DNA of 64,000 bases. It comes from Streptomyces sp. NBC_01689 (GTDB lineage Bacteria; Actinomycetota; Actinomycetes; Streptomycetales; Streptomycetaceae). Position numbers and translations under genes: made by a program. The notes under the pieces are model-generated. The model saw only the letters and a list, made by a program, of their open reading frames with translations, was not told where the DNA came from and made no database searches. Below are positions 4,071 through 32,299 of this stretch, in pieces; the first letter of the stretch is position 1, and each line of letters opens with the position of its first letter. The stretch covers positions 1,178,001-1,242,000 of the forward strand of contig NZ_CP109592.1 in the NCBI RefSeq assembly GCF_036250675.1, written 5' to 3'.

Positions 4071-4776
4071 CACGGTCCTTCTCGAGGCCCCGGGTGAAGG
4101 CATGGAGGTGGGGCAGGTCCTCGGCCTGGACCGAGGTGATCCGGGTGCTCAGCAGGGCGGCATTGTTGTCGGCGGGATCCAGCAGCACGGCGAAGCGGTG
4201 GATGAGGCCGGCCAGAGCGGTCATCTCGTGGCAGGCGGTGCGGGCGGCCTCGATGCGTTCTCGCTGGTGGTCCTTGAGGCGGCCGGGGCGGGTGAGCAGG
4301 TAGCGGGGCGAGAGGGCGGGCCGGTCGGCCTCGACACGGCCCTGGTTGATGAAGCGGACCAGCAGGTTCGAGCTGCCGGTGTAGCCCAGCTCCCTGATCT
4401 CCTCGAGGAGATGGGTGACAGGGACGGCCGGGTTCTCCAGCCGACGTCGGCGCAGGTGATCGCGGTAGGGATCCACGAGAGTGGGCCGGTACTTGGGGGC
4501 ACGGATGAGGCGCGCGGGTTCGGTGACGCGGTCGTAGCGGTTGACGGTGTTGAGAGCCAGGTTCAGGCGGCGCGCGCACTCCAGAAGCCCGACTCCACGC
4601 TCGCGCGCGTGGACCTGGTGCCAGCGCTCCCCGGTGGTGGCGGCCTGTCTCCCTTCAGCCGGGGGCGGGCCTGCTTTCGCCCAGCAGGTGCTGTGCGCGG
4701 CGACTTCTTTGCGGACGGCCTCGGCGAGGTTGTGCCGCAGGTGCCAGCGGTCGTACTGGCTTTCCGTCAGGGCCGA
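4071..4776 (-). pseudogene. ISL3-family transposase remnant (C-terminal part)
   Basis: The minus-strand frame contains the signature DRWHLRHNLAEAV of ISL3 transposases, an internal helix-turn-helix-like stretch, and the C-terminal sequence leading to FTRGLEKDR, where normal members continue into a conserved NTKTK-type tail. Here the conserved tail is replaced by unrelated Gly/Arg-rich residues, so the 3' end has been lost. The N-terminal DDE half and zinc-binding region are also missing upstream. No inverted repeats were found. A dead IS fragment. Confidence 0.75.
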
Positions 4777-27617: not shown

Positions 27618-28031
27618 TCAGTCGCTTCGGATGCGGGCGTGCAGATGCATGTCGTGTCGGCCGTCGTCATGCACGGCGGCGCTTCGCTTGGTGCCTTCCA
27701 GGAGGTAGCCGGACTTGGTAGCGACCCTGCAGGAGGCGTGGTTGCGGGTGGAGTGGTCCAGCTCCAGCCGGTGGAAGCCGATCTCGTTCAGGGCCCAGGC
27801 CGTGAGCGCCCCGAGGCCGTACGAGGCCACTTTGGCCCCGCGGGCGGCCGGGAGCACCCAGTAGGCCGCGCCGGCTACGCCGTCGTCTAAATCCAGTCCG
27901 CGTAGTGCAATCCGGCCGAGTACCTCGTCACCGTCGCGGGTGATCGCCCAGTGGCCGCCCTTCTCTTGTTTCCAGTCCTGGCGGTATGCGTCGAACCATT
28001 CCCGGGCCACATCGACCCGTGGCCCGGGCAC
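27618..28031 (-). CDS. GNAT-family N-acetyltransferase (RimJ/RimL type), N-terminus uncertain
   Basis: A 137-residue acetyltransferase of the ribosomal-protein-acetylating type. WAITRDGDEVLGRIALRG is the central sheet, YWVLPAARGAKVASYGL the acetyl-CoA pyrophosphate loop, and FHRLELDHSTRNHASCRVA with SGYLLEGTKRSA the conserved C-terminal signature. Family members are usually about 170-190 residues, so about 40 N-terminal residues are missing or lie upstream in a degraded frame. The left end of the IS630-type element sits 97 bases upstream and may have cut the gene. The GTG at 28031 is tentative. Confidence 0.7.
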   Translation of the reverse strand: MPGPRVDVAREWFDAYRQDWKQEKGGHWAITRDGDEVLGRIALRGLDLDDGVAGAAYWVLPAARGAKVASYGLGALTAWALNEIGFHRLELDHSTRNHASCRVATKSGYLLEGTKRSAAVHDDGRHDMHLHARIRSD

Positions 28032-28173
28032 GCTGTTTGCAATTCGTTCGGCATGGCGATCACTATGGAGAGGCCCAGCAGAGCGGCCGCGAGACGGGCG
28101 GCGGGGGCTGTCGGAGATGTCACGCTAGTGCTGTGACCGGATTGGTTCACCGGGTTGGCGGTACTGTCCGCGC

Positions 28174-28584
28174 ATGAATCAGCTCCCCTGCACTCTGGAA
28201 GCCCTCGTTGTGCGCACCGATTTCTCGGCAGACGGTGCCTGGGACGCTCTGCGGGTGGCGCTGTTTTCGCCCAGCAAGGACGGCTTCTTGGCCAACGTCG
28301 CAGTCGTCGATGACCGGAGGTACGAGGGTTTGACGTCCGACCAGGCCCTCGACCTGATCCCCGCGGAGTACCAGCATCCGCTTCTTGTCTTAGCGGACTG
28401 TGTAGCCCTCGCCTCGGCTGAACGGCCGCTCCTCGTGCTGGACCTGCAGGGTGAGCGTGGGTGTGGTGTCCGCGTTGTGGCAGCCCAGCTGTGGAGCATT
28501 GAGAACAACCTCTCGGGCGCGAACATGGACTTCGAGGAGTTCGCCGGCGCCGTCGACGAGGACGGCGTCTTTCGGGGCTTCTGA
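28174..28584 (+). CDS. DUF6924-type protein, transposon passenger
   Basis: A 136-residue acidic soluble protein. The N-terminal strand (ALVVRTDFSADGAWDAL) and the conserved end (LWSIENNLSGANMDFEEFA, then VDEDGVFRGF) match the actinobacterial DUF6924 family, whose function is unknown. It has no signal peptide or membrane segment. Its ATG at 28174 lies just inside the left inverted repeat of the IS630-type element, and its stop is 21 bases from the converging transposase stop. Expression would depend on a promoter in the inverted repeat or in the flanking DNA. It may be an immunity-like or regulatory cargo; that is speculation. Confidence 0.82.
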   Translation: MNQLPCTLEALVVRTDFSADGAWDALRVALFSPSKDGFLANVAVVDDRRYEGLTSDQALDLIPAEYQHPLLVLADCVALASAERPLLVLDLQGERGCGVRVVAAQLWSIENNLSGANMDFEEFAGAVDEDGVFRGF

Positions 28585-28605
28585 GTCACTGGCCGTTGGG
28601 CGGTG

Positions 28606-29754
28606 TCAGGCCGCGGCGGCGAGGGGGCGTCCGCCCCAGCGGACGCCCTTCTCGCTGCGGACGCGGGCGCGTTCCTTGCGTTCTGCGGCCAGGACGTCGC
28701 GGTGGCGTGCGTTGGCGTTGCGCCACCGCAGGTAGGCGTGCAGGGCCCGGGTCTGCACGGTGTGGTTGGGGTGGTGGGAGTTGGCGAGGGTGAACTGCCG
28801 CAGTGGTCCGAAGTGGGCTTCGATCGGGTTGGCCCAGGAGGCGTAGGTCGGGGTGAAGCACAGTTCGGCCTTGTGTTTCCTGGCCCAGCGGCGGATGTCG
28901 GCGCCTTTGTGGGCGGACAGGTTGTCCAGGATCACGTAGATCGGGGCGCCGTCGGGTCGGGCGGCGCGGATCGACTTCAGTGCGGCCAGCGTGTTGGCGG
29001 CGCCCTTCCTGCGGCGGTTGACGCCCCACAGGGTGTCGTCGCCGACCGAGTAGCAGCCGTGGAAGTACCGCACTCCGTGGGTGCGGTGGTAGGTGGCCGG
29101 CACCCGGTCGGGCCTGGTCTGCGTGGCCCAGCAGCTGCCGCCGGTGGGTCGGATCCCGAGGGGGCCCGACTCGTCGAAGGCGAAGACCCGGTCCGGGAAG
29201 CGGTCAAGGACCTCCTCGATCCGGTCCAGCTTCGCCTCGCGCTCGGGGTCCGGGGATTCCTTCCATGTCCTGGTGCGCTGAAAGGTGACACCGCGGCGGG
29301 CGAGCAGGCCGCGTAACGCCTCACGGCCGATGTAAATCACCCGGCCGTGGATTTTCCGTAGGTAGGCGACGAGTTTGCGCAGTGACCAGCGGGTGAAGGG
29401 CTGGCCGAGTTTGGTGGGGCGGGTGGTGGCCGTCCGGATGACGAAGTCCTCGTCGTCAGGGCTGAGTCGGCGGGGACGGCCTCCCGCCCACCGAGGGTCC
29501 AGGCAGGCCAGGCCGATCTCGTTGAAGCAGTGGACCACATCTCGGACGGTGTCCTCGTCGGCCTGCACCAGCTGGGCGATCACCGGTACCCGGTTCCCAC
29601 CGGCCGAGGCCAGCAGCATCATCGCGCGCCGATAGCGCACTGAGTTGGTGCTTCCCCGGCGCACGATCTGCCGCAGCTTCTGCCCCTCCTGACCGGTCAG
29701 TCTGCGCACACGGACGGGCTCGGCCACCGCGCCTCCAGCGGTCGGATTGGACAT
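28606..29754 (-). CDS. IS630-family transposase, apparently intact
   Basis: A 382-residue DDE transposase. The N-terminal helix-turn-helix region includes RYRRAMMLLASAGGNRVPVI and the homeodomain-like KLGQPFTRWSLRKL. The catalytic motifs are FAFDESGPLG, VILDNLSAHKG and ASWANPIEAHFG (D, D and E). The start is the ATG at 29754 after a purine-rich site; a frame extends upstream to 29781. No stop codon, frameshift or missing motif was found, so the element could be active. Confidence 0.92.
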   Translation of the reverse strand: MSNPTAGGAVAEPVRVRRLTGQEGQKLRQIVRRGSTNSVRYRRAMMLLASAGGNRVPVIAQLVQADEDTVRDVVHCFNEIGLACLDPRWAGGRPRRLSPDDEDFVIRTATTRPTKLGQPFTRWSLRKLVAYLRKIHGRVIYIGREALRGLLARRGVTFQRTRTWKESPDPEREAKLDRIEEVLDRFPDRVFAFDESGPLGIRPTGGSCWATQTRPDRVPATYHRTHGVRYFHGCYSVGDDTLWGVNRRRKGAANTLAALKSIRAARPDGAPIYVILDNLSAHKGADIRRWARKHKAELCFTPTYASWANPIEAHFGPLRQFTLANSHHPNHTVQTRALHAYLRWRNANARHRDVLAAERKERARVRSEKGVRWGGRPLAAAA

Positions 29755-29813
29755 CACCCCCCATCCAACCGCCACGACCACCGACCCGGTGAACCTATGC
29801 GGTCAGAGCACTA

Positions 29814-30296
29814 GCAGCGCGGGATCCCTGGAGATCGTCGTGTGGGGCCGGTGCCGGCGCCTGCAGGCGGACGAGGGCAGGCTCTCGCCGCGGTGCAGGG
29901 CGCAGAGAACGGGTGCTGCGCGCCCGCAGAGTCTCTTGGACGGGCAGCACACACGTGCAGCAGCTGCCCTGCACGGCCGGTGCCGGGCCGGGAGGGGGCG
30001 GTCTGTGAAGGCGGCTGGAGAACCGCTGTACTGGTTCGTGCTCTCCGTTCACCTCGGTCTCGCCCGCTTCGACGGTGGTGTCGCAGAAGACGACACTGCA
30101 AGGCGCCGGGAATGACCGCACGGAGTCTGACAGTTCTCTTCGGATTTGCTGAGCGAACGACGGGCGATCGAGGCTCGTTCTGCGACGGCGACGAACGAGT
30201 CCAATACTGATGTCGAGGCGGGCGGTCCTATTGAGGTCGCGCGGGTGAGGACGTTGCGGAGAGGTTTTCTGGCGGTGGTCGTCGGCGGATGAGGTG
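29814..30296. other. Intergenic region, no gene seen
   Basis: About 480 bases right of the transposon. Several frames are open on both strands, but codon use is irregular and no family is recognised. Nothing supportable. Confidence 0.35.
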
Positions 30297-32009
30297 TCAT
30301 CCAAGATCGGCGGGCCTGGTGAGTGGGAAGGGCGAATGGCTTGGGGTCTTGCGAACGAAGGCGGAGCGCAAGTCATGGTAGGGCGCGCGGGGGTTGAAGA
30401 AAATGGCGTGCATACGGGCAAGTTCGGCATTTCGATGATCTGAGAGGGAACGTGTGCGTTCCCTCGCGCAGTGTGCGACGGCCTTGGCGGCGATTCGCCG
30501 GTCCAGTCCAGGATCGGCGACGATCTCGACGGCGAGTCGCTCGATCTCGGCAGTGAACTCCTGCGGTGCGGCTGGTACAAGCCGGTCCACAAGGCCGAGC
30601 CGTTCGGCGTCGACCGCGCTGACCGGCAGGGCCTCGGCGGTGAGTCGCTCTGCGTGTCCGGGGCCGACCCGCCGGGGCAGTGTGTACGTCCAGTACTCGG
30701 AGCCGTACAGGCCCATGCGTCGATAGTGCGGGTTCAGGACGATGCCGGTGCGGCACCAGACCTCGTCTGCGGCGAGGGCGAGCATGGCGCCGCCGGCAGC
30801 AGCGTTCCCGCCGACGGCGGCAACCACGAGCCGGTCGGTGGTGAGCAGGATCTGTTCGACGAGGTCGTCCATGGCGTTGAGGTTGGCCCAGGACTCTCGG
30901 CCTGGATCGGGGGCGGCTTCGATGACATTCAGATGGATGCCGTTGGAGAAGAAGTCTCGCTTGCCGCCGAGGACGAGGACGCGGGTCGGGCGGGAGAGCG
31001 CAAACCGGTAAGCGGCGAGCAGTCGCCGGCACTGCTGGGTGCTCATTGCGCCGCCGGGAAAGGAGAAGGTCAGGAAGCCGACACCGCCGTGTTGGTTGTA
31101 ACGGATGTCGCTCCATGTGCGCCGGCTGGCCGGCACGTCGAAGGGAAGGACGGCTTGCGGCAGTGCGGTCCGGGTGCCTGCGGTGAAGCTGGCCAGAACA
31201 GACGTGGCCGGACGGCGAAAGGGAGCGGGATCGCCCGAGTTCTTGCGAGGCCGGAGCTCGGGGATCCAGACCGCGCCGTCCCTGGTGGCCCGGCAGATGG
31301 CACCGGCGCGCTGGGCGAGAAGTGCACCAGGGCGACCGCGCAGCTGGTCTTCCGGATACCCTCCGTGGAGGAACACCTCCCGGCCGACGAGTTGATCCAG
31401 CACGCCCGGCTGCGAATCGGCGGCGCGAAGCTTGTGCACCACCGTCTCGGTGTCATCATGATGCCAGTCGATACGGCGCCGCTCCTGCCGGAAGGCATCG
31501 CGCCAGACAACGTTCACCGAGGCGTCTGTCTGCGGCAGGGGCTTGTAAGTGCCTTCTGTGAAGCGTCGTACCGCCACAAGGACGGCTCTTACCGCAGCGT
31601 CAGTGACCTCACCCCGGTACAGGTCGCTCTTGCCGACGGGTGGCACTCGGAAGCGCTCGGCGGCCCAGATCGCGCCCGCATCCATCGCCGCTCCCGCCTG
31701 CAGCACAGTCACACCCGAGTACGGCGTTCGCGCGTCCACGGCCCAGTCCAGCGCGGACGGACCCCGGTCGCCGGGCGGACCCGGGTGGACGATCAAACAC
31801 GTGTGCTCCTGCCATACGTCCTCGGGAAGCGCCGTCTTCAGCATCGGCGCGACGATCAGCCCGGGCCGCATAACGTGTAGAGCAGCGCGGACCGGGGCCG
31901 GGCCATGAGTGGCGAGCACGACCTCCACACGGTGTCCGTGCCCTGACAATTCGACGTACAGACGCTGCGAAAGGCTGTTGAACGCGCTGGCTACGAGCAA
32001 GATGTCCAC
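30297..32009 (-). CDS. hoxX: HoxX-type hydrogenase maturation protein (formyltransferase-crotonase fusion)
   Basis: A 570-residue protein. The N-terminal half is a formyl-tetrahydrofolate-using domain of the Fmt type: VDILLVASAFNSLSQRLYVE at the start, the signature HPGPPGDRGPSALDW at about 100-114, then the linker domain. The C-terminal half is an enoyl-CoA hydratase/isomerase (crotonase) domain with GGKRDFFSNGIHLN, AAVGGNAAAGGAMLALAADE and NPHYRRMGLYGSEYW. HoxX makes the CO ligand of [NiFe]-hydrogenase under aerobic conditions from a formyl group via formyl-CoA. No hydrogenase gene lies in this window, so its partner must be elsewhere. The GTG at 32009 is chosen because the family begins there. 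Confidence 0.88.
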   Translation of the reverse strand: MDILLVASAFNSLSQRLYVELSGHGHRVEVVLATHGPAPVRAALHVMRPGLIVAPMLKTALPEDVWQEHTCLIVHPGPPGDRGPSALDWAVDARTPYSGVTVLQAGAAMDAGAIWAAERFRVPPVGKSDLYRGEVTDAAVRAVLVAVRRFTEGTYKPLPQTDASVNVVWRDAFRQERRRIDWHHDDTETVVHKLRAADSQPGVLDQLVGREVFLHGGYPEDQLRGRPGALLAQRAGAICRATRDGAVWIPELRPRKNSGDPAPFRRPATSVLASFTAGTRTALPQAVLPFDVPASRRTWSDIRYNQHGGVGFLTFSFPGGAMSTQQCRRLLAAYRFALSRPTRVLVLGGKRDFFSNGIHLNVIEAAPDPGRESWANLNAMDDLVEQILLTTDRLVVAAVGGNAAAGGAMLALAADEVWCRTGIVLNPHYRRMGLYGSEYWTYTLPRRVGPGHAERLTAEALPVSAVDAERLGLVDRLVPAAPQEFTAEIERLAVEIVADPGLDRRIAAKAVAHCARERTRSLSDHRNAELARMHAIFFNPRAPYHDLRSAFVRKTPSHSPFPLTRPADLG

Positions 32010-32084
32010 GGCACCGCATCTTCGCGGGCTTTGGCGTGAACAGCGAAGAAGCACGGCCGTCTCGTGTCCGCCAGGCCAGCTCGT

Positions 32085-32299
32085 TACCGGTAGTTCGTTA
32101 AATCCGGAGGTAGAGGTCAATGCCCTGTCCGGTGGTGACTGCGTCAGCCGCGTACCCCTCCAATGGACCGGCGCGGGCGGACACGGACAGTGAGCAGTCA
32201 TCTTCAGCCCCGACGGAACAGTTGACTCCTCCGACCGGCCTACGACCGACCCGAACTACCGTCAACCCACCTCACCACCGGATTAACGAACTACCGGTA
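32085..32299. repeat. MITE-like pair of inverted repeats (about 215 bp)
   Basis: A 23-base sequence at 32085-32107 (TACCGGTAGTTCGTTAAATC and three more bases) is repeated in reverse complement at 32278-32299, missing one A. The outermost bases are TA on both sides, which could be a target duplication. The roughly 170 bases between have no gene. This is the form of a non-autonomous element mobilised by a transposase in trans, upstream of hoxX. Confidence 0.6.

Follow-up and report, generated by a model that had tools for sequence, protein, structure and literature searches.

An IS630-type element carrying a DUF6924 gene in Streptomyces, and its lineage as a probable carrier of exchangeable single genes

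The DUF6924 gene and the transposase gene at 28126..29813 of the window, by which we mean the whole 64,000-nucleotide stretch of Streptomyces sp. NBC_01689 that was analysed, very probably form a transporter IS (tIS) that belongs to a lineage of the IS630 family in Streptomyces and its relatives. Judged by comparison of sequences, most sampled copies of this lineage appear to hold one exchangeable host-type gene and to insert into CTAG, and such genes may be acquired by means of a second end. Because the extra gene differs from copy to copy, the lineage looks like a small vehicle for shuttling genes.

The element and the copies of DUF6924

The element in the window has the following parts.

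28126..29813, no strand: complete IS630-family element with passenger, transporter-IS-like, 1688 bp; the same unit is found at other sites
28126..28162, + strand: distal (outer) terminal inverted repeat, with the target-duplication TA at 28126-28127 and CTAG at 28125-28128
28174..28584, + strand: passenger gene DUF6924 (PF21962, E 8e-45), 136 aa, convergent with the transposase; dN/dS 0.20 against the closest copy
28585..28605, no strand: junction between the passenger and the transposase stop; in relatives without a passenger the distal end lies here, but a former end is not recognisable
28606..29781, - strand: IS630-family DDE transposase, 391 aa, with D203, D286 and E321 invariant in 8 aligned sequences
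29777..29813, - strand: proximal terminal inverted repeat at the transposase start, with TA at 29812-29813 and CTAG at 29811-29814

The initial annotation had described 35-base ends matching at 30 positions, TA duplications, a DUF6924 ATG 11 bases inside the left repeat and two convergent genes, DUF6924 and an open DDE transposase frame, and the sequence bears out all of this. The two repeats are identical at 32/37 positions (30/35 over the first 35), TA is duplicated within CTAG at both ends, and a repeat search over 2.4 kb found no inverted pair longer than this one, reported at 39 nt (87%, flanking GC included). A weight matrix was derived from 100 proximal ends of relatives; with it, the outer end of the window element scored 57 bits and the outer ends covered by that scan 18 to 63 bits, while control scans in reverse orientation never rose above about -6 bits. 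The transposase frame matches NF033545 (IS630-family transposase) with 162 bits against a cut-off of 100; a PDB search with it gave no relative (best E 0.25).

IS630 elements target CTAG and usually consist of the transposase alone, at a typical size of about 1.0-1.4 kb. The window element has a DDE transposase of the IS630 type, and its terminal inverted repeats and TA duplication in CTAG are supported by the empty site of a relative (see below); with 1688 bp and DUF6924, the transposase is not its sole gene, a usual feature of the family which does not exclude membership. No close second copy of the transposase is present in the same genome (9.96 Mb, two contigs), where the next match is 40% identical, and a search of viral contigs gave one weak partial match. 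Beside the element lies a GNAT gene (27618-28031), which looks truncated at its start because its PF13302 match begins only at position 34, and further along an ORF of 634 aa (30297-32201) joins formyltransferase and enoyl-CoA hydratase domains and is HypX-like.

The DUF6924-carrying form, whole or decayed, was found in nine copies at seven sites as defined by their left flanks, which are unrelated.

DUF6924 element sites: window; L004; L203; plasmid copies L240; L241/L242; L243; L244/L245

The DUF6924 frame is open in eight of the nine copies, L245 being frameshifted, whereas two copies, those of the window and L240, have an uninterrupted transposase frame, and in both of them the element is complete. 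In L203 and L242 DUF6924 persists with the transposase wholly or partly deleted. The dN/dS of DUF6924 is 0.20 for the window compared with L004; the 28 pairs that the eight open copies form give 0.16-0.78, values that carry no significance test. Because the gene is conserved, DUF6924 probably gives its host something.

The comparison with empty sites that had been proposed for the window insertion gave none among 150 relatives, in which the GNAT gene and short matches alone were found, and succeeded for its relative L241, which has two empty counterparts (L271 and L272), on plasmids of NBC_00015 and NBC_00080. The left flank of these plasmids aligns up to L241 position 2289 (99.7% and 96.8% identical, respectively) and the right flank from position 4638 (89.3% and 82.5%), and the two alignments overlap by the four bases CTAG at the empty site, indicating insertion into CTAG with duplication of TA. 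Queries of this kind for L240 and L244 found none among the matches listed. In L241 a further ORF of 163 aa, without a Pfam match, is stacked between the outer end and DUF6924.

DUF6924 also occurs apart from the element. Among 392 genus genomes, 129 have it, and no such element end lies within about 1.5 kb of 28 of the 30 non-window loci that we looked at. DUF6924 is also the C-terminal domain of two larger plasmid-borne proteins (L246:2594-4435, 614 aa; L248:3320-4387, 356 aa), one of them annotated as a lectin. A second DUF6924 gene in the genome of the window (G000:C1:8373333, 32% identical) was ruled out as the source of the passenger. At L243:3001-6408 the DUF6924 copy and its decayed transposon lie near an SMI1/KNR4 gene and a DUF6531 protein, possibly a toxin-immunity neighbourhood. 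The single-sequence structure model of DUF6924 (mean pLDDT 45.5) was not used for any reading.

Passengers across the lineage

We read relatives of the element in two sets. The first comprised 110 loci from among the whole-element matches listed, 30 taken automatically (L003-L032) and 80 chosen by hand for near-complete transposase coverage. A good proximal end was present in 100 of them, the other 10 scoring under 27/36, and 8 had no distal end, which left 92 with both ends: 84 elements of 1500-2787 bp and 8 passenger-free ones of 1198-1245 bp. The second set, the best 80 of 364 named loci, included 5 without a proximal end and 6 without a distal end within 3.3 kb, and 59 of its 69 two-ended elements measured at least 1300 bp. 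Merging the sets and removing 19 repeated sites gave 142 distinct two-ended elements, among which L084/L085, near both chromosome ends, were counted once on account of their same flanks, despite looking like two copies in one genome. In 126 of the 142, extra DNA lies between the transposase and the distal end (total length at least 1300 bp), and in 16 it does not, so that the transposase-only organisation which the initial annotation took as the norm is not the norm of the copies sampled here; because the loci came from the best transposase or DNA matches, 126/142 is not an unbiased rate. Most of the whole-element matches listed from the 392 genomes start near query position 480, which is the transposase stop; one further match among those listed spans the DUF6924 end (G141, query 1-1664).

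Five of the 16 passenger-free copies are identical 1242-bp copies in one genome, so this form is active too. L139, L184 and L191, which stand outside the counts, have outer ends at a distance of 3.3-3.8 kb from the proximal one and may be units with several passengers. Hosts other than Streptomyces include Actinomadura, Kitasatospora, Streptosporangium, Streptacidiphilus and Actinacidiphila; the element of Actinomadura mexicana carries a DUF6368-group gene 93% identical to one from the genus.

Passenger ORFs, chosen by length and GC3, numbered 125 in the 126 passenger-bearing elements and fell into 56 groups by blastp; doubtful cases are L051/L093 (dN/dS 1.3), L114 (63 aa) and L118 (1395 bp, no ORF picked). 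One member of each of 46 first-set groups, that of the window included, was scanned against Pfam, with a match at E up to 0.001 in 33 and none in 13. The matches were to GNAT, S1, DUF6368, alpha/beta hydrolases, methyltransferases, glyoxalases, NADAR, OMP decarboxylase, inositol phosphatase, Imm51, Imm53, SUKH-4, SMI1/KNR4, CPT (partial), aminoglycoside-2''-adenylyltransferase (ANT(2'')), APH, M15 (VanX/VanY type), S66 carboxypeptidase, ABC ATPase, pentapeptide repeats and others; a SnoaL match was below its own cut-off. PADLOC, run on 10 passengers, matched the NADAR one alone.

Each of the 28 multi-member passenger groups is found at more than one site, the flanks being unrelated (the comparison covered both sides in 26 groups and one side in 2), and near-identical elements stand at two sites of one genome in four cases (L011/L036, L025/L037, L060/L061 and L078/L080). 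Exchange of passengers is suggested by L063 and L070, whose transposase DNA is 95.5% identical and whose passengers are unrelated (GNAT group and methyltransferase group). On a FastTree tree of the 142 transposases, 141 of them labelled with 57 states, no fewer than 84 changes of passenger state are needed, where 56 is the possible minimum; part of these changes may come from errors in the tree or from the GNAT group being broad. All dN/dS values are below 0.5 in 10 of the 16 passenger groups with usable pairs.

DUF6924 had been taken for a conserved passenger of the element. A search for the same ends without it found them many times, mostly around another single gene, and we reject DUF6924 as the lineage's own conserved passenger because other copies carry other genes; what survives of that claim is that the gene moves with an IS630-family element and is mostly kept in frame.

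The genome of the window holds a further IS630-type element outside it (G000:C1:1024236-1026252; L034/L251), with a transposase 41% identical to that of the window element. Its 29-bp ends are perfect and lie 2.0 kb apart, and its passenger, of 237 aa, is located 5' of the transposase. Twenty loci of this second lineage, this one included, were sorted by eye into 7 with a passenger (1566-2466 bp), 3 short ones (1137-1235 bp) and 10 unclear ones; labels given to passengers, also by eye, include glyoxalase-, SMI1- and histidine-phosphatase-like. A lipoprotein gene in L263 and the first-lineage passenger carried by L047 share 89% identity. That the L047 gene is a nested second-lineage element was ruled out, as no clear end of that lineage is found there (best 19/28).

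Insertion sites, capture and competing explanations

The outer ends have C before TA in 128 of the 142 elements and the proximal ends G after TA in 134. Of 242 flank sides, 40 show one clear coding frame reaching the site and 202 show none; the target TAG is the in-frame stop codon of the reaching gene in 35 of these 40 and out of frame in 5, against a background from window CTAGs of 3 in frame and 2 out among 45 sides, numbers too small for an adequate comparison. CTAG is about eightfold rarer in the window than base composition predicts (23 observed, 192 expected). The element starts with G after TA and the stop codon is therefore restored. The transposase places the element into CTAG with duplication of TA, as the empty site shows, and, TAG being remade on both sides, the element could occupy an adjacent gene's stop codon and leave that gene unchanged. 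The high share of stop-codon sites may reflect a preference or survival, as a similar pattern would arise if insertions that break genes were lost.

Traces of how passengers entered are preserved in some relatives. A recognisable former inner (distal) end is found about 1240 bp from the proximal end in 23 of the 126 passenger-bearing elements, above all 1455 control windows; these span 10 passenger groups, and 12 of them score at least 14 bits, the rest being weaker. The junction at 28585-28605 of the window is not among the 23. Transposase- or end-derived DNA, a relic of a second copy or second end, lies beside the outer end in 5/126. L047 has 188 bp that match the end of its own transposase at 98.9% identity and L095 has 96 bp; in L118 the end is doubled, and L156 and L183 have short pieces (36 and 48 nt, partly the end itself). 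Since 103/126 keep no recognisable inner end and 121/126 no second-copy relic, capture by a second-end route is traceable in a minority only. The outer ends were also considered as ordinary transposase-side ends, which we discarded: a short resemblance was present in just 4/126, and a longer search found transposase-derived DNA in 5/126.

The passenger stop overlaps or abuts the former inner-end point in L006, L026 and L113, and convergent passengers stop within 10 bp of this point in 21/64 and within 30 bp in 43/64, counts which have no null model; 20/84 passengers have the opposite, non-convergent orientation. The segment added in L241 is flanked by repeats of five bases of the element end, and its ORF could also fit ordinary insertion or illegitimate recombination beside the end. 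A solo end of the family stands at G000:C1:9530256-9530283 (L227), with no partner within 1.5 kb, and is of the kind that capture would need.

From the relics we infer the following route. Another, partly deleted copy would leave a second end past a neighbouring gene, and the transposase would use this outer end, so that outer end, gene and IS are mobilised as one unit. The former inner end would then decay and the gene become a fixed passenger, and repeated capture would replace or stack passengers. After insertion, the host may retain the passenger while the transposase decays, as in the copies of DUF6924.

Other explanations of the passenger have to be weighed against this. DUF6924 could serve the transposon itself, for example by regulating the transposase or acting together with it, given its tight packing between end and transposase and the complete elements of the window and L240. 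However, passenger-free copies (16/142, with five identical ones in one genome) do without it, other copies carry unrelated genes and DUF6924 outlasts a wholly or partly deleted transposase in L203 and L242, which makes this reading scarcely credible. Equally hard to sustain is the view that the two ends were inserted independently and that the passenger is host DNA caught between them, which does not move with them: the second-copy relics beside the outer ends of L047 and L095 speak for it, but the DUF6924 unit at seven sites with unrelated left flanks contradicts it for DUF6924, and the empty sites of L241 place the TA duplication at the outermost ends.

A passenger that is neutral freight, kept only through having been inside, would agree with the spread of DUF6924 dN/dS, which is not uniformly low, with the frameshift in L245 and with the dN/dS of 1.3 in the L051/L093 group, where the ORF was perhaps wrongly picked; we think it unlikely, since DUF6924 is in frame in 8/9 copies and the transposase in 2/9, and 10/16 groups have all values under 0.5. 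Possible, if on balance doubtful, is that DUF6924 is an immunity- or resistance-type protein and that the platform mainly spreads genes for self-protection. Imm51, Imm53, SUKH-4, SMI1/KNR4, CPT (partial), ANT(2''), APH, M15 and S66 among the other passengers speak for it, as does the copy near the SMI1/KNR4 gene and DUF6531 protein, but immunity- or detoxification-like labels make up just 13/46 groups, in our own grouping of Pfam labels made without a genome background, and DUF6924 itself has no PADLOC match, no relative in PDB (best E 0.38) and a place as C-terminal domain of larger proteins. We therefore prefer the reading of the element as a tIS with an exchangeable passenger.

Relation to known systems

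This tIS lineage suggests a simple route for single genes, some of them resistance- or immunity-like, to pass from one actinomycete to another on a unit some 2 kb long, which is annotated in two pieces, as 'IS630 family transposase' and as 'hypothetical protein'. Gene pickup by insertion sequences may here be readable from its relics, namely second-copy stubs, fading inner ends and docking at stop codons, and the decayed copies offer a way to find genes, such as DUF6924, which hosts keep after the death of the transposase. A broader proposal, which we advance tentatively and as somewhat less likely than not, is that IS630 elements of Streptomyces and relatives, the second lineage likewise, are a general gene shuttle with harmless stop-codon docking at the 3' ends of genes, second-end pickup of those genes and a large, changing pool of single genes (immunity and detoxification included), a transposon counterpart of integron cassettes. 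A literature search, mostly without subscription papers, found no description of Streptomyces IS630 elements with exchangeable passengers, and none of DUF6924.

The window element shares with typical IS630 elements the NF033545 DDE transposase, the terminal inverted repeats and the TA duplication in CTAG. IS630-family elements are given as about 1250 bp with one or two ORFs in PMC11092175, whereas the elements of this lineage mostly measure 1500-2800 bp and have a passenger. They resemble composite transposons in that a second copy or end past the gene, of which L047 retains 188 bp, seems to be required for capture; they differ in that one IS and one outer end remain, with one transposase and one end pair in place of two complete ISs flanking the gene, and partial relics in 5/126 relatives. 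Mobile insertion cassettes (MIC), named in PMC3129680, resemble L203, where DUF6924 is still flanked by end sequences although the transposase has been lost by deletion; L203 is however a decay product of a full element, and the window copy has its own transposase.

The closest known kind is the tIS, described for IS1- and IS1595-family elements (PMC9330008, PMC3129680, PMC8496243), in which IS ends, a transposase and a gene unrelated to transposition form one moving unit. Here too a passenger unrelated to transposition lies inside IS ends, and it appears, by comparison only (the seven sites, the empty sites and 28/28 groups), to move with the IS as one unit. This lineage differs in belonging to the IS630 family, with passengers in most sampled copies, 56 passenger groups, repeated exchange, relics of capture and stop-codon sites, and what would be new relative to known tIS is the frequent and repeatedly exchanged passengers of an IS630 lineage.
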